Part shown: one piece after another, positions 33,721-42,461 of the stretch
How the letters are laid out: each line of letters begins with the position of its first letter
How positions within the stretch are numbered: position 1 is the stretch's first letter
Assembly: GCF_024029855.1 (NCBI RefSeq)
Contig: NZ_CP097205.1
Location: forward strand, 398,391 to 462,390
Direction of reading: 5' to 3'
Source: Buchnera aphidicola (Sipha maydis)
Lineage (GTDB): Bacteria > Pseudomonadota > Gammaproteobacteria > Enterobacterales > Enterobacteriaceae
DNA length: 64,000 bases
The notes under the pieces: model-generated
What the model was told of the DNA's origin: nothing
The model's database searches: none
Seen by the model: only the letters and a program-made list of their open reading frames with translations
Made by a program: the position numbers and the translations under genes

Positions 33721-35130
33721 ATGTCTTTAAATCAAATTGGAGTTATTGGCATGGCAGTTATGGGAAAGAATTTGGCTTTAAACATTGAAAGTAAAGGATA
33801 TACGGTATCAATTTTTAATAGATCAGCAGAAAAAACTAAAAATGTTATTGATAATAATAAAAATAAGAATATTTATCCTTTTTTTAAGATTAAAAATTTT
33901 GTTTCATCATTACAAAAACCTCGTATTATTTTGTTAATGATTAAATCTGGGAAAGCAACAGATATTACGATTGATTTGATTTTACCATATTTAGATAAAA
34001 AAGATATCATAATTGACGGAGGTAATAGTTTTTACAAAGATACAATTAAAAGAAATATTTATTTATCAAAGAAAAATATAAATTTTTTAGGTGTAGGAAT
34101 ATCTGGAGGAGAAGAAGGAGCATTAAATGGACCTGCGATTATGCCTGGAGGTAATAAAAAAGCATATTTAAAGTTAGAAAATTTATTTAATAAAATTTCT
34201 GCAAAAACAAAAAATGGTACACCTTGTGTAAATTACATTGGTTCTGATGGTTCAGGACATTATGTGAAGATGGTGCATAATGGTATTGAGTATGGAGATA
34301 TGCAATTAATTTCTGAAGCATATTTTATTTTAAAAAAATCGCTAAATTTAAATAATAAAATTCTCCATAAAATTTTTAAAGAATGGAACAAAGGAGAGTT
34401 AAAAAGTTATTTAATTGAAATTACAAAAAATATTTTTTTAAAAAAAGATAATTCTGGAAAATATATTCTCGATACTATTTTAGATTCTGCAAGTAACAAA
34501 GGTACTGGTAAATGGACGAGTAAAAGTGCTTTAGATTTAAACGAACCTTTATCTTTAATTACTGAATCTGTTTTTTTTAGATATTTATCTTCTTTAAAAT
34601 CTCAAAGAATGAAAGCATCTAAAATTCTTTTTGGTCCGAAAAATAATTTTTCTGTTATGAATAAAAAAAAATTTATTGAGGATGTTAGGCGTTCTTTATA
34701 TTTAGGAAAAATTATTTCATATGCACAAGGTTTTTCTCAATTAAGTAGAGCATCTGATGAATATCAATGGGATTTGAACTATTCTAATATTGCAAAAATT
34801 TTTCGTTCTGGATGTATTATACGAGCAGATTTTTTGAAAGAAGTTATATATGCATATAAAAAAAATAATCAATTGATTAATTTGTTATTGATAGATTATT
34901 TTAAAAATATTGCTAACTCTTATCAACATTCTCTTAGAAATATTGTTTCTTATTCAGTTTTAAATGGAATTCCTATTCCTGCTTTTTCTTCTGCTATTTC
35001 GTATTATGATTCTTATCGTTCCTCTGTACTTCCTGCGAATTTAATACAAGCTCAAAGAGATTATTTTGGAGCTCATACATATTTTCGGGTTGATAAAAGT
35101 GGAATTTTTCATACAAATTGGTTAGAATAA
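33721..35130 (+). CDS. gnd: 6-phosphogluconate dehydrogenase
   Basis: Oxidative pentose phosphate enzyme that makes ribulose-5-phosphate, CO2 and NADPH. I start it at ATG 33721 after AGGAGAAAA, giving 469 aa (E. coli 468); upstream in-frame codons are not conserved. Visible are the NADP-binding [21 protein letters not shown], the signature [19 protein letters not shown], the catalytic region [16 protein letters not shown] and the ending [13 protein letters not shown]. It follows the his operon as in E. coli, and its product pool supports PRPP-requiring histidine synthesis. Confidence 0.97.
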
Positions 35131-35301: not shown

Positions 35302-36840
35302 TTATTTATTTTTTTTATATATTTGGTTTAATTTCCAAATATTATTTAATATTTCAATCATAACGTATACGGAAGATTTTAAAAGATTTTTAGATGTATG
35401 TGTTGAGTGGAACTTTTTATTGTTATATTCTGCAATTAAATTAATTTTATTGAAAATTTTTTTTCCTTTTGTGATAGAACTTATTTGAAAATTTTTAATA
35501 AATATGTTAAAACTAGAAATTTTTTTTAACCCTTGATAAATTTTTTTTATTACATCATTTTTTGTTTTAATAAATAATTTTTTAATTTTTTTTCCACATA
35601 TTAAATCTATAAAAATTTTTGTTTTACCATAAAATTTTAAAATAATTTTTAAATTTTTTAAGATAAAATATGGTTTTTTTTCTAAATATTTTTTTTTAAA
35701 AGCTAATTTTTCTAGATCATAATCACAAATTTGACCTTTTTTATCGGCTAGTTTTAAAAAATTTTTATATAATTTTTTTAAATTATAATCTTTTTTTTCT
35801 ATATATCCTATTTCTTTCATTCTCTGTTTGACTGCTGCTCGTCCTGAGCGTGGTGTCAAGTTGAATTGTATTTTTTTTAATCCTATGTCTTTTGGAGACA
35901 TAATTTCGTAATTTTTCCTATTTTTTATAACACCATCTTGATGAATTCCAGAAGAATGAGAAAAAGCATTTTCTCCTATAATTGCTTTATTTATTGGTAT
36001 AGGAATATTACAAATTTCACTAACTATTTTACTAGTATGATAAATTTCTTTATGTTGGATATTTGTAAAAAAATTTAATAATTTTTTTCGTGTTTTAATA
36101 GCCATGATTATTTCTTCTAATGCTGTATTTCCTGCTCTTTCTCCAATTCCAGTAATAGTACCTTCAATTTGTCTTGCTCCAGCTTGGATTGCAGAAATAG
36201 AATTTCCAACCGCCATTCCTAAATCATTATGGCAATGTATGGATATAATTACTTGATCGATGTTTGGAACACGTTTATATAAATTTTCAATTATTTTGCT
36301 AAATTCATTAGGAATTGTATATCCAACTGTATCTGGAATATTTATTGTTTTAACACCATTTTTTATTAAAGATTCTACAATACGACATAAATTATCAATA
36401 GATGTACGTCCTGCATCTTCACAAGAAAATTCTATATCATCTGTATATTTTTGTGCTATTTTAATAGATTTTAATGCCATTTGATGTATTTCTTGAAAAT
36501 TTTTTTTTAGTTTAGATTCTATATGTAATTTAGATGTTCCTAAAAATAAATGAAGACGAAAGTTTTCTAATTGAGACATTGCTTCTGCTGCAATTCTTAT
36601 GTCTTTTTCAAGACATCTTGCTAAACTACATATAGTGCTATTTTTTACATGTTTACAGATTTGTTGCACAGATTTAAAATCTCCAGGTGAAGATATAGGA
36701 AATCCTGCTTCTATAATATCGATATTCATTTTTTCTAAAGCTAAAGCAATTTTCACTTTTTCTTTTATATTTAAGCTTGTTTGTAGAGATTGCTCTCCAT
36801 CGCGTAAAGTCGTATCAAAAATAATAATTTTTTCTTTCAT
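35302..36840 (-). CDS. leuA: 2-isopropylmalate synthase
   Basis: First committed step of leucine synthesis, condensing acetyl-CoA with 2-oxoisovalerate. It is 512 aa (E. coli 523). The catalytic barrel is intact: [39 protein letters not shown], the metal-binding [13 protein letters not shown] and [13 protein letters not shown], then HQDGVIK. The C-terminal regulatory domain is more divergent and Lys-rich, so the strength of leucine feedback cannot be judged. Unusually, it is the last gene of the cluster, 83 bases after leuD, rather than the first. Confidence 0.97.
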
Positions 36841-36923
36841 TGATTTATCTTATATAAAATATTATTCAAGATGTAATTTTTTAAATTATTTTTATTTAAA
36901 ATTTTTTAAAATATATAAAAATT

Positions 36924-37547
36924 TTAAGAGAATAGTTTTCTATTTTCTAAATATTTTAGTTTATTTTTTTTTTCATAATCTATGATATTTTGAATTTTTT
37001 TTAATGTTAAATCAATTTTATCGAGTCCATTTATTAATTTAAATTTATAAAATTTATCGATTGAAAAGTGGTACTTGATTTTTTCAACATAAATTTTTTC
37101 TTTTAACAGGTTTACAATACATTTTGTTTTCTTATTTTTTTTGATGAATGAAAAAATTTCTTGTATTTGTTTTTTATTTAATTGAATTAATAAAAGATTA
37201 TTATTTACACTATTATTATAAAAAATATCAGCAAATTGAGAAGAAATAATGACTTTGATTCCATAATCTATTAATGCCCATACTGCGTGTTCACGTGATG
37301 AGCCACAGCCAAAATTTTCTCCTGTTATTAATATACTTGTATTTTTATATTTTTTTTTATTTAGAACAAAACTTTTATTTTTTTTTTTGGATTTATTATC
37401 TATATATCTCCAATTGTGAAATAAATGTTTTCCAAATCCAGTTTTTTTTGTACTTTTTAAAAATTGTTTTGGTATAATAATATCTGTATCGATATTTACG
37501 ATATTGATAGGAGCAATTATTCCAGTATGTTTTTGAAATTTTTTCAT
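36924..37547 (-). CDS. leuD: 3-isopropylmalate dehydratase small subunit
   Basis: With LeuC isomerises 2- to 3-isopropylmalate. It is 207 aa (E. coli 201). The family signatures NVDTDIIIPKQFL (here NIDTDIIIPKQFL, near residue 21), FGCGSSREHAVWAL and FADIFYNNSVNN are intact. The ATG directly abuts the leuC stop. The 83-base gap that follows before leuA is where plasmid replication genes would be expected in a circularly permuted pLeu; no such gene is present. Confidence 0.97.
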   Translation of the reverse strand: MKKFQKHTGIIAPINIVNIDTDIIIPKQFLKSTKKTGFGKHLFHNWRYIDNKSKKKNKSFVLNKKKYKNTSILITGENFGCGSSREHAVWALIDYGIKVIISSQFADIFYNNSVNNNLLLIQLNKKQIQEIFSFIKKNKKTKCIVNLLKEKIYVEKIKYHFSIDKFYKFKLINGLDKIDLTLKKIQNIIDYEKKNKLKYLENRKLFS

Positions 37548-38957
37548 TTAATTTTTCTCTTGATATAGTTTTCTAACATCTATAAAGTGTCCAAATATTG
37601 CAGAAGCAGCAGCCATAGATGGACTTACTAAATGCGTTCTTCCACCTCTACCTTGTCGCCCTTCAAAATTTCTATTACTTGTTGATGCACATCTTTCTTT
37701 TTCTTTCAATCTATCTTTATTCATTCCAAGGCACATTGAACAACCAGAAAATCTCCATTCAAATCCTGATTTAATAAATATTTTATTTAATCCTTCTTTT
37801 TCTGCTTGAAGTTTTACTTGATTTGAACCGGGAACAATTATTGCTTGAACATTTTTATTTACTTTTTTCCCTTTAACGATTTTTGCTACATCTCGTAAAT
37901 CTTCAATTCTAGAATTTGTACATGAACCAATAAATACTTTATCAACTTTTGTTTTTTGTAAAGAAGAGTTAGGTAAAATTCCCATATATTTAAAAGAATT
38001 TTTTATAGATTTTTTTATATTTTTTTCTTGAAAATTTTCTATTTTTGGAGTTTTTTCATTAATTGATATGATTTGATCCAGATTTGTTCCCCAAGTTATT
38101 TGTGGAGATATATTAGTAATATCTAAGTTAATAATTTTATCAAAATAAGCATTTTTATCAGATTTAAGTGTTTTCCAATATTTTAAAGATTGAGTCCAAT
38201 TTTTTCCTTTTGGAGAGAATTTTTTGTCTTTCAAGTAATTAAATGTTATTTCATCTGGAGCAATTATTCCAGATTTAGCACCCATTTCTATCGCCATATT
38301 ACATACAGTCATTCTTTGTTCCATACTAAATTTTTTTATTATATTTCCACAAAATTCAATTATATATCCTGTTCCTCCCGAAGAACCTATTTGTCTAATT
38401 ACATATAATATAACGTCTTTAGCAGTTATTCCTGTTTTTAATTTTCCTTGAATTTTCACTTTCATATTTTTAAATTTATTTTGTTGTATTGTTTGTGTGG
38501 CTAAAACATGTTCTACTTCTGATGTACCAATTCCAAAAGATAAAGCTCCAAAAGCTCCGTTTGTTGATGTGTGAGAATCTCCACATACGATTATTGTTCC
38601 AGGTAAAACCATACCTTGTTCTGGAGCAATGACATGCACTATTCCTTGATTTTCATGTAAAATATCATATAATGGTATTTTTTCATTTCTACAATTTTCT
38701 ATCAGTTTTTGCATTTGTATTTTGGCCATTTTCCCGGATGCATTAATATTTTTTTCAGTTGTTGAAACATTATGATCCATAGTTGCAAAAGTTTTATCAG
38801 GTCTTCTTACACGTCTATTTTTCATTTTTAATCCATCAAATGCTTGTGGAGATGTCACTTCATGAATTAAATGAAGATCAACATACAAAATAGAATGTTG
38901 ATCTTTTGTTTGTATTAAATGTGAATCATATATTTTTTGATATAAAGTTTTTTTCAT
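37548..38957 (-). CDS. leuC: 3-isopropylmalate dehydratase large subunit
   Basis: Iron-sulfur subunit of isopropylmalate isomerase. It is 469 aa (E. coli 466). The three [4Fe-4S] cysteines are seen in FIGSCTNSR and [11 protein letters not shown]; other aconitase-family blocks are [43 protein letters not shown] and RNFEGRQG. It overlaps leuB by 4 bases (ATGA) and abuts leuD. Cluster assembly could involve SufA, found elsewhere in the window. Confidence 0.97.
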
Positions 38958-40051
38958 TTATTATATTCCTTGATTAATGATTTTGTAATTTCATCTCCCA
39001 TTTGATTCGTGGTAATAAATTTGTTTCCATTCGAAATATCTAATGTTTTATATCCTTTTAGTAGTGTTTTTTGTATAGAGAGATTTATTTTTTCAGAGAT
39101 TTCATATAATTGAAAACTATGTTTTAAAAGTAGTGAAAAAGAAAGAATTTGCGCAATAGGATTTGCGATATTTTTTCCTTGAAGATCAGGAGCAGTTCCT
39201 CCAGCAGGTTCATATAGACCAAATTTTTTTTCATTTAAGCTTGCAGAAGCTAACATTCCTATAGATCCAGTTAAAATTCCGCATTCATCTGAAATAACAT
39301 CTCCTATAAGATTTGGGCATAAAATTACATCAAATAAATTTGGGTTTTTAATGATTTGCATAATTGCATTATCAAAGTATAAATGTGATAAATTTACTTT
39401 AGGATATTTTTTAGCAACTTCTTCAACTGTTTTTTTCCATAATTTTGAAGTATTTAGTACATTAGATTTGTCTACAGATACTACTTCACATTTTCTTTTT
39501 AAAGATTCTTGAAAAGCAATATGTGCTATTCTTTCAATTTCATGTTTATGATAGATCGTTGTATCTAAAGCGTAATGCTTATTTTTTTTTTGTATTTCAA
39601 TAGATGGTTTACCAAAATATATTCCACTTGTTAATTCTCTTACGCATAAGATATCAAATCCTTTATTAGAGATTTTTTTTTTTAATGGGGATAATTTATA
39701 TAATTTCGGATGTAAAAAAGAGTGTCTTAAATTTGCAAATAATTTAAAATGTTTTCTTATTTTTAATAAAGAAGCTACTTCTGGTCTTTTGTGTGCAGGT
39801 AAAGAATCCCATTTTGGTCCTCCAACAGATCCGAGTAAAATTGCATGAGATTTTTCACATCCTTTTAGTGTTTTTTTAGGTAATGCTTGACCCCATTTTT
39901 CAATAGCAATTCCACCAATATCGTATTCTTTTATTTGTAAATCTATTTTAGATTTAATTTTGATGACTTCGATAATTTTATATACTTCACGCATTACTTC
40001 AGGACCAATACCATCTCCTGGAAGAACTGCTATTTTTAGTTTTTTTTTCAT
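38954..40051 (-). CDS. leuB: 3-isopropylmalate dehydrogenase
   Basis: Oxidises and decarboxylates 3-isopropylmalate with NAD+. It is 365 aa (E. coli 363). Visible are [12 protein letters not shown], the substrate-binding arginines in [36 protein letters not shown], and the signature [21 protein letters not shown] with its metal-binding aspartates. It is the first gene of the leuB-leuC-leuD-leuA unit, whereas the usual order is leuABCD. Its promoter must lie in the long spacer upstream. Confidence 0.97.
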
Positions 40052-40835
40052 TTTTAATATTTATATTTGTTTTTAATTTTAATTTCAAAGTATCATTGAT
40101 CGTACCATATAAAGAGTTAGTTTGAAACTTTTCAAAGAAATTACAAGTTTATTATTTTTATGTAAATTTTTATATTTTTATAAAAAAATAAATGAAGTAT
40201 TAAAATTTTTTAAAAGTATTGATTGTAAAAAAAAATATGTTAATAAATTTTGTGTACATTAAGTATAATTCTTATTATAAATATAATTTTTAAAAAAAAA
40301 ATATTATTTGTTTTATATATGTTAAAAAAATTTTGTGTTGGAATATTTTCTTAAATTTATTTTTTAAAATTTTTTATAAATAAAATTTTTTTGTGTTTTA
40401 TATCAAAGAATTACTTTTTTAGAAAAATTTTTTATTTATCAAGTTTGTGCAAATTAAAATATTTTTTATTTACGTTCATAAATTTTTTTAATGGTAATGA
40501 GTTTTTATCTATGTCGATTTTGAATAAAAATTCGATCTAATTTTTATAGTAGTTTTTTAAAAAAATTTATTTTGATTTAAAATAAAATATTTTATATTGA
40601 TTATAAAAAAAAATTTTTATATTTTTAATTGTTTAATTTAATAACTATTTTTGAAGTTTGAAATTATTTAAAATATTTTTATGTCATATAACAATGAAAT
40701 TAATGTATTATAAATAGCATGAATGTAAAAAATTGAATTTTTTATTTTAAATTTTTTAAAAAAAATATAATTAGAAAAATTTTTCTACAATTTATAAAAA
40801 TTTTTTAATTATTAAAGAAAGTGAAATTATATAAT
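40052..40835. other. Long gene-free spacer between divergent leuB and metG
   Basis: Nearly 780 A+T-rich bases without a gene. The first 100 bases next to leuB are the least A+T-rich; on the minus strand a TTTCAA, 17 bases and TACGAT (about 40095-40123) is a weak candidate promoter for leuB. An adjoining inverted repeat reads TTGAAA-CT-TTTCAA. In other Buchnera, dcd lies between gnd and metG (from memory) and is absent here, so the spacer may be the decayed far edge of the leu insertion plus lost dcd. Confidence 0.45.
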
Positions 40836-42461
40836 ATGATGAAAAAAAATATTTTAGTTACATGTGCTTTACCATATTCTAATGGACCAATACATATTGG
40901 GCATTTATTAGAGCATATTCAAGCAGATATATGGGTGAGATATCATAAAATGAATAAAAGATCTGTTATTTTTATTTGCGCAGATGATACTCATGGAACT
41001 CCTATTATGTTAAAGTCTGATAAGATGAAAATGAAACCGAATGATTTAATTAAAAAAACTTTTCGTGAACATTTTCGTGATTTATCAAATTTTAATATTT
41101 TATATGATTATTACAGTCATACAAATACTAAAGAAAATTTATTTTTTACAAAGAAGATATTCTTATCTTTAAAAAAAAAAGGATTTATTATAGAAAAAAA
41201 TATTTTTCAATTATATGATGTATTAAAAAATATTTTTCTTCCAGATAGGTTAGTTAAAGGAGAATGTCCGAAGTGTTTTTCAAGCAATCAATATGGAGAT
41301 CATTGCGATAAATGTGGATCAGTTTATTCAGCTCAAGATCTTTTACATCCACGATCTGAAATTTCTAATTCTATTCCTATTTTAAAAAAAACTAAGCATA
41401 TTTTTTTTAATCTTTCAAGTTTTGAAAAAACTTTAAAAAATTGGATTTCTTCAGGTGTATGTAATTTACAGGTTGAGCGAAAATCTAAAGAATGGTTTAA
41501 AAATGGTTTACGTTTGTGGGATATTTCAAGAGATGCTCCGTATTTTGGTTTTAAAATTCCTGGTTACAAAGAGAAGTATTTTTATGTTTGGTTAGATGCT
41601 CCTATATGTTATATTAGTACTTTAAAAATTTTATCAAAAAAAAGAAAAGATATATGTTTTGATGAATTTTGGAAAACTTCTCATAAAACTTCTATATATC
41701 ATTTTATAGGTAAAGATATTATTTACTTTCATAGTTTATTTTGGCCTGCTATTTTAGAGGGAATTAATTTTCGCAAACCTACTGGAATTTTTGTACATGG
41801 ATATGTAACGATCAATAATAAAAAAATGTCAAAATCAAAAAATTTTTTTATCAAAGCTTCAACTTGGTTAAAACATTTTGATTCTGATAGTTTAAGATAT
41901 TATTTTGCATCTAAACTTTCATCTAAAATTCATGATATTGATTTAAATATAGATGATTTTATTTCTCGTATTAATTCTGATATCGTTAATAAAATTGTTA
42001 ATTTAGCATCAAGATGCTCTACTTTTATTAATAAAGATTTTAATAATATGTTGAGTAGTTTCGTATTACAAGAAAAAATATACGTTTTTTTTTATAATAA
42101 TACAAAAAATATTTTGTCTCTTTTTAAAAGAAGAGAATTTTCTGCAGTAATACGATCTATTGTAGAATATGCAAATTTTGCAAATAATTATATTAATGAT
42201 ATGCGTCCATGGGTTTTATCAAAAAAAAATAAATATGATATTCAGATACAATTGATTTGTACTATGGGAATTAATTTATTTCGTTTTTTAATGACTTGGT
42301 TAAAGCCCATTATGCCGGATTTAAGTTATCGTTCAGAATTTTTTTTATCTACAAAATTTTCATTTGAATCTTTAAAACATCCTTTGTTAAACCATAAAAT
42401 TCTTAAATTTTTTTGTTTATATAAAAGAATTAATGTTTCTAGAGATATATTTTTTAAATAA
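40836..42461 (+). CDS. metG: Methionyl-tRNA synthetase, without C-terminal dimerisation domain
   Basis: Class I synthetase charging initiator and elongator tRNA-Met. The catalytic part is intact: the HIGH motif in PIHIGHLLEH, a zinc knuckle (ECPKCFSS...DHCDKCGS), YVWLDAPICYIS, GKDIIYFHSLFWPA and the KMSKS motif in KKMSKSKN. At about 541 aa it stops where the monomeric core of the E. coli enzyme (677 aa) stops; the C-terminal tRNA-binding/dimer domain is absent. The start is uncertain: ATG 40836 or 40839 matches E. coli best, but GTG 40821 lies closer to an AAAGAAAG ribosome binding site. Confidence 0.95.
   Translation: MMKKNILVTCALPYSNGPIHIGHLLEHIQADIWVRYHKMNKRSVIFICADDTHGTPIMLKSDKMKMKPNDLIKKTFREHFRDLSNFNILYDYYSHTNTKENLFFTKKIFLSLKKKGFIIEKNIFQLYDVLKNIFLPDRLVKGECPKCFSSNQYGDHCDKCGSVYSAQDLLHPRSEISNSIPILKKTKHIFFNLSSFEKTLKNWISSGVCNLQVERKSKEWFKNGLRLWDISRDAPYFGFKIPGYKEKYFYVWLDAPICYISTLKILSKKRKDICFDEFWKTSHKTSIYHFIGKDIIYFHSLFWPAILEGINFRKPTGIFVHGYVTINNKKMSKSKNFFIKASTWLKHFDSDSLRYYFASKLSSKIHDIDLNIDDFISRINSDIVNKIVNLASRCSTFINKDFNNMLSSFVLQEKIYVFFYNNTKNILSLFKRREFSAVIRSIVEYANFANNYINDMRPWVLSKKNKYDIQIQLICTMGINLFRFLMTWLKPIMPDLSYRSEFFLSTKFSFESLKHPLLNHKILKFFCLYKRINVSRDIFFK

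Follow-up and report, generated by a model that had tools for sequence, protein, structure and literature searches.

Chromosomal leuBCDA in Buchnera aphidicola (Sipha maydis): a gene order that probably predates its transfer from a plasmid

The four genes of the leucine branch lie on the chromosome of Buchnera aphidicola (Sipha maydis) in the order leuB-leuC-leuD-leuA, which raises the question of how leuA came to be last. They are found in a stretch of 64,000 nt, referred to here as the window (positions 398,391–462,390 of contig NZ_CP097205.1), which is the terminal part of a single contig of 462,390 bases; coordinates below are those of the window. An earlier note on this DNA had described the four genes as intact and tightly packed between gnd and metG, with 83 bases between leuD and leuA. 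It had ascribed them to a plasmid, and had read their order as a sign of where a leuABCD circle had been opened, namely between leuA and leuB. Gene calls and profiles bore out the description. All four genes are full length, have no internal stop and lie on the minus strand of the main chromosome, from 40051 to 35302; leuC and leuB overlap by 4 bases, leuD abuts leuC, and leuA follows after the 83 bases. Each exceeded the cut-off of at least one NCBIfam equivalog or equivalog-domain model (Table 1). The leuLABCD operon of Escherichia coli contains the same four genes and is also chromosomal, but it starts with leuA and has a leader peptide; the Sipha maydis cluster starts with leuB and is thus not of the E. 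coli type. No Rfam match to a leader of the leuLABCD type was present in the window at gathering cut-offs.

The cluster was compared among 11 genomes of one GTDB genus (Sipha, Chaitophorus, Periphyllus and kin, the Sipha maydis genome included; hereafter ‘the genus’). All 11 showed the same arrangement at the same site: gnd pointing towards the cluster, then leuA, leuD, leuC and leuB on the opposite strand, then metG in the direction of gnd. The surrounding gene order from hisF to tyrS, where found, was otherwise unchanged. Since leuBCDA occupies the same place in all of them, chance or an assembly slip can be ruled out, and a single old insertion is indicated. In eight of the 11, leuB and metG are separated by an intact dcd gene on the plus strand (one genus copy and one outgroup copy were assigned to dCTP deaminase by profile); it is missing beside the cluster in the Sipha maydis genome, in its sister G009, and in G005. 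A search for a dcd remnant in the leuB-metG spacer of the Sipha maydis genome gave no signal above dinucleotide shuffles, so the loss is read from synteny. The sole dcd-like match in this genome is weak, at 27% over 100 residues (E 8e-4), and lies elsewhere; at a guess, it is perhaps a related dUTPase. The gnd-metG locus was free of leu genes in all 13 loci inspected from other Buchnera, where it reads gnd-dcd-metG or, if a dcd reading frame is missing, gnd-metG; that of Mindarus also has a gene for a thiD-type kinase, and that of the Neophyllaphis-like G028 has further genes. The insertion interrupts this otherwise conserved order and, since dcd adjoins leuB in eight genomes of the genus and other Buchnera have gnd-(dcd)-metG without leu, it can be assigned to the gnd-dcd interval and to a time earlier than the diversification of the genus. 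Sabater-Munoz et al. (2004) reportedly compare insertion sites in Pemphiginae and Chaitophorinae, and may already give the gnd-dcd site.

The leu plasmids of other Buchnera bear directly on the origin of the order. A tblastn search with LeuA returned 64 plasmid records named Buchnera, and nine of these, picked for host diversity, were examined. Six carry leuBCDA (Mindarus, Kurisakia, Cinara confinis, Tuberolachnus, Greenidea and Chaitoregma) and three carry leuABCD (Acyrthosiphon, Neophyllaphis and Nipponaphis; in Nipponaphis leuA and leuB are 1.2 kb apart). A set of 16 plasmid contigs drawn from genomes, which overlaps in part with the nine records, comprised 11 BCDA and five ABCD. On the BCDA plasmids the rep genes, where annotated, fall within the leuA-to-leuB interval; the C. 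confinis record has no rep annotated and has trpEG in that interval. The rep-leuBCDA (pLeu) plasmids of Kurisakia, Tuberolachnus, Mindarus, Chaitoregma and Greenidea thus have the gene order of the Sipha maydis cluster, from which they differ in being extrachromosomal and in having rep, and in some cases also yqhA, between leuA and leuB. The spacing is also alike for part of them: leuD and leuA are 53–89 bases apart on the Kurisakia, Greenidea and Chaitoregma plasmids, and across the 11 genomes of the genus the distance from match end to match end is 77–146 bases. As a separate observation, the leuABCD plasmids of the Acyrthosiphon pisum symbiont and G083 (loci L133 and L154) have a very long, near-perfect inverted repeat directly upstream of leuA, with differing loops.

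Because leuBCDA is common on Buchnera plasmids, the permuted order most likely predates integration. The cluster is most likely a further case of the already published transfer of leu genes from plasmid to chromosome, and not the mark of a plasmid cut point. The reading favored here, with a probability of about 0.8, is an old transfer of a plasmid-borne leuBCDA unit into the chromosome. The donor plasmid would already have had the order rep-leuB-leuC-leuD-leuA, and the insertion, between gnd and dcd, would date back to the ancestor that all members of the genus share. Recombination would have spared the intact transcription unit from leuB to leuA, the replication region between leuA and leuB being lost. 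The cluster would be read as one unit, from a promoter upstream of leuB to a terminator shared with gnd, and dcd would later have been lost beside it in the lineage of Sipha maydis and its sister, and in G005. The plasmid origin suggested in the earlier note is upheld by the failure to find repA, by the absence of leu from the site in other Buchnera, and by the occurrence of leu on plasmids and at six chromosomal sites. The proposed cut of a leuABCD circle is not, since leuBCDA is already the plasmid order in six genera, with any rep genes lying in the leuA-to-leuB interval; the earlier note had itself named such an order on plasmids of sister lineages as counting against its reading.

The order carried by the donor was also approached through two trees, one of gnd plus metG (35 rows) and one of LeuABCD (53 rows). 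The genus formed one clade on both, with Shimodaira-Hasegawa-like approximate likelihood ratio test (SH-aLRT) values of 98 and 100, respectively. On both best trees its sister was a carrier of a BCDA plasmid, Hormaphidinae on one and Greenidea on the other. At least four and at least five changes of order were needed on the two trees; E. coli and genus g89 (G098, G284 and G347; ABCD), which may not be aphid Buchnera, were left out of the order counts. Anoecia (G196) was excluded from the leu-tree count and included in the estimate of ancestral states. A two-state model in which the genus was scored gave a probability of BCDA at its parent node of 0.96–0.98. Several observations weigh against transfer of a ready-made leuBCDA unit, however. 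When the genus was masked, the probability at the parent node was 0.50 on the gnd plus metG tree and 0.80 on the leu tree. The backbone is weak: the Hormaphidinae sister had a support of 68, and the Greenidea fork, which is unresolved, also holds the ABCD carriers Neophyllaphis and Nipponaphis. Some BCDA plasmids have wider leuD-leuA gaps (193 bases in Mindarus, 201 in C. confinis and 329 in Tuberolachnus). The profile of a conserved block upstream of leuB (Table 1) found no convincing match on any plasmid. Finally, no plasmid scar was found at the cluster, and the recombination step has therefore left no direct trace.

The earlier note had advised comparing leu order and flanks across Buchnera lineages, and this comparison found BCDA and ABCD not only on plasmids but also on chromosomes. 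Chromosomal clusters occupy six sites in all, three with BCDA and three with ABCD; in other lineages the leu genes are plasmid-borne. Besides gnd-dcd, BCDA was found at ruvX-yggS in the Fordini genus (order in 5/5 inspected of 11 genomes, flanks in three) and at truA-secA in group g121 (order and flanks in 3/3). The ABCD sites are tsaB-minD in g60 (order in 5/5, flanks in two), trxA-rep/ilvC in g92 and Taiwanaphis (order in 4/4 for g92, flanks in three), and a position near the 6-phosphogluconolactonase and mfd genes in Anoecia. The flanking genes of these other sites were named by profile in one genome per group. The leuD-leuA gap measures 264–577 bases in Fordini, and 264–600 bp over Fordini and g121 together; the leuA-leuB gap of g92 is about 500 bases. 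The Fordini cluster resembles that of Sipha maydis in being chromosomal and transcribed in the order leuBCDA, but its different site and wider leuD-leuA gap indicate that it was inserted independently. Parts of PMC11188193 describe these same two patterns, giving the leu map order as ADCB in Fordini and as DCBA in Therioaphis, Sarucallis and Stegophylla, and ABCD in Anoecia; the word Chaitophorinae does not occur in that paper. Taiwanaphis and g92 (L144 and L147) were seen to have ABCD in the same trxA-ilvC neighborhood though they lie apart on the leu tree, which would mean either that they inherited one old insertion or that the same target was hit more than once.

Searches for a remaining plasmid or its traces were made, as the earlier note had also advised. 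Its first suggestion, repA in the rest of the assembly, yielded nothing: IncFII RepA was absent from the Sipha maydis genome (the E. coli control was positive), and a Tuberolachnus RepA query had no match in any of the 11 assemblies of the genus, which an unassembled plasmid would escape. As a control, the latter query was positive in nine of 27 genomes, namely eight of the nine leu-plasmid carriers included, plus G101; C. confinis was negative. Passages of PMC9317480 report that the chromosome of the Sipha maydis Buchnera was circularized, and mention a plasmid only for the Serratia partner. A further suggestion, rep remnants in the leuD-leuA and leuB-metG spacers, fared no better: rep and yqhA profiles run over both flanks and the leuD-leuA gap of the Sipha maydis genome found nothing above shuffles, with known controls scoring 480 bits (a rep gene) and 55 bits (a rep fragment). 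Nor did the rep profiles rise above shuffles in the corresponding gaps of Fordini, g121, g92 and Anoecia, and the remnant search was empty in the Nipponaphis leuA-leuB gap and in three other plasmid gaps. A junction remnant of rep or the origin was not counted as required for back-transfer after long erosion. For yqhA in the leuA-leuB gaps of g92, the best score was reached by 1, 17, 1 and 154 of 200 shuffles (G101, G286, G213 and G349, respectively). These best scores were at most 5.3 bits (5.3 and 4.7 in L147 and L166), and the matches covered overlapping parts of the profile, on opposite strands in G101 and G213. Given such very weak scores and opposite strands, no yqhA remnant is claimed for g92.

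These results bear on the explanation advanced in the earlier note, according to which integration split a leuABCD plasmid at the leuA-leuB junction to give BCD-rep-A, and the rep genes then lying between leuD and leuA were later lost. Plasmids of the required type are known in the symbionts of Acyrthosiphon, Neophyllaphis and Nipponaphis, and the wide leuD-leuA gaps of Fordini and g121 leave room for a lost segment, so a cut is possible for such wide-gap lineages. For the genus, however, it appears unlikely: several lineages close to it have BCDA as an established order on their plasmids, the leuD-leuA gap is short in all its genomes, and there is no rep or yqhA trace in the Sipha maydis gap, nor any rep trace in those of Fordini and g121. 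A cut would moreover need a break within the transcription unit followed by a precise deletion. It is very unlikely that leuABCD was inserted first and leuA was then relocated behind leuD within the chromosome; ABCD clusters do exist on other Buchnera chromosomes, but none of the 11 genomes has ABCD at gnd-dcd, the surrounding hisF-tyrS order is kept where found, and the extra step is needless given BCDA plasmids. An ancestral leuBCDA at gnd-dcd that later moved to plasmids has nothing in its favor beyond conservation in the genus and is extremely unlikely, as E. coli has leuABCD beside leuO and leu is missing from every inspected gnd-metG locus of other Buchnera.

How the transferred leuBCDA unit would be expressed was considered from conserved features at its two ends. 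The block upstream of leuB lies 76–109 bases from the gene in the ten genomes of the genus that have it (81 in Sipha maydis). Most copies contain an AGTTTnAAACT palindrome, and the block also has a TATATGATACGAT-like string resembling an extended -10 element. Because of this conserved block some 80 bp upstream, the suggestion of the earlier note that leuB is the promoter-proximal gene is plausible. On the Mindarus plasmids, leuB is preceded by a TATATGATATAAT-like site, which is no more than suggestive. Matches to a promoter consensus were fewer (33) than in shuffles (48.8) and were set aside. At the other end, a hairpin lies between leuA and gnd, which converge; it was present in ten of the 11 genomes (the profile was built from nine of them) and might terminate transcription from both sides. 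The fold of the leuD-leuA spacer is weak in Sipha maydis (-7.8 kcal/mol), though it reaches -15.1 and -12.4 kcal/mol in G002 and G003. As far as sequence can tell, the pattern of folds and block fits a single transcript from leuB to leuA. For the pea aphid symbiont, passages of PMC3229713 report that the leuABCD plasmid gives one transcript and that leuA responds differently under leucine starvation.

Table 1. Features of the leuBCDA locus in the window, with strand and supporting evidence
Feature	Position	Strand	Evidence
gnd, left flank of the insertion	33721..35130	+	Gene call and profile
Hairpin between convergent leuA and gnd, likely shared terminator	35228..35280		Fold -21 kcal/mol, z -5.15
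leuA, 2-isopropylmalate synthase, last in the cluster	35302..36840	-	NF002084, 771 bits (cut-off 748)
leuD-leuA spacer, 83 bp	36841..36923	-	Lacks a strong terminator hairpin; rep/yqhA remnant not found
leuD, isopropylmalate isomerase small subunit	36924..37547	-	TIGR00171, 240 bits (cut-off 116)
leuC, isopropylmalate isomerase large subunit	37548..38957	-	TIGR00170, 771 bits (cut-off 560)
leuB, 3-isopropylmalate dehydrogenase, first in the cluster	38954..40051	-	TIGR00169, 445 bits (cut-off 353)
leuB-metG spacer, 784 bases, site of the lost dcd	40052..40835		Synteny with 8/11 genomes
Promoter-like block upstream of leuB	40075..40142	-	Aligned in 10/11 genomes of the genus; profile built from those 10
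metG, right flank	40836..42461 (start 40836 or 40821)	+	Gene call and profile

The LeuA protein itself is unevenly conserved. In all 11 genomes of the genus, its identity to the E. coli protein is 57–66% over residues 1–380 and 13–28% over residues 390–510. The LeuA_dimer domain scored 27.9 bits in the Sipha maydis leuA (C-terminal part, 35302–35733), barely above the cut-off of 24.9, against 134 bits in E. coli, 112 in the Acyrthosiphon symbiont and 110 in the Therioaphis symbiont. Similar C-terminal divergence was found in several other lineages, and the Baizongia reading frame ends at 390 amino acids. Judged by this divergence, the allosteric domain may have lost feedback inhibition by leucine; Buchnera was not mentioned among the matches listed in a literature search on loss of LeuA feedback inhibition.

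As regards another amino acid gene, trpE is chromosomal in the Sipha maydis genome (G000:C1:326804-328309); no match was found in four of the 11 genomes (G002, G003, G006 and G007), and the G001 copy is interrupted by a single in-frame stop.

Back-transfer of leucine genes has been proposed before. Passages of PMC3229713 confine the chromosomal leucine cluster to Pemphiginae and Chaitophorinae and hold back-transfer to be plausible, citing Sabater-Munoz et al. (2004). The Sipha maydis cluster agrees with the Chaitophorinae case described there in being chromosomal and non-ancestral; what the present analysis adds to those passages is the site, the BCDA order and its presence in 11 genomes, and the loss of dcd. 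No leu order for the Sipha/Chaitophorus/Periphyllus clade was found in the portions of the literature examined, which included PMC11188193, PMC3229713, PMC11193766 and PMC9317480. What had been a suggestive oddity thus becomes a placed event, one insertion common to a symbiont genus, with an order explained by plasmids that survive elsewhere. It also counsels caution, in that a permuted order should not be taken as an integration scar before the orders on plasmids are compared.

A broader idea, held only tentatively, is that chromosomal leu order is a fossil of plasmid type, the BCDA and ABCD clusters, at three sites each, both keeping a plasmid architecture. Fordini (BCDA) and g92 (ABCD), both chromosomal, are sisters on the leu tree (98), which counts against so simple a rule; for these two, different openings of one circle are possible. 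If the order was kept at each site, the break at integration would almost always have fallen within or next to the replication region, leaving the leu transcription unit untouched. One could then tell from gene order which type of plasmid each lost lineage carried, and the lost plasmids could be reconstructed.

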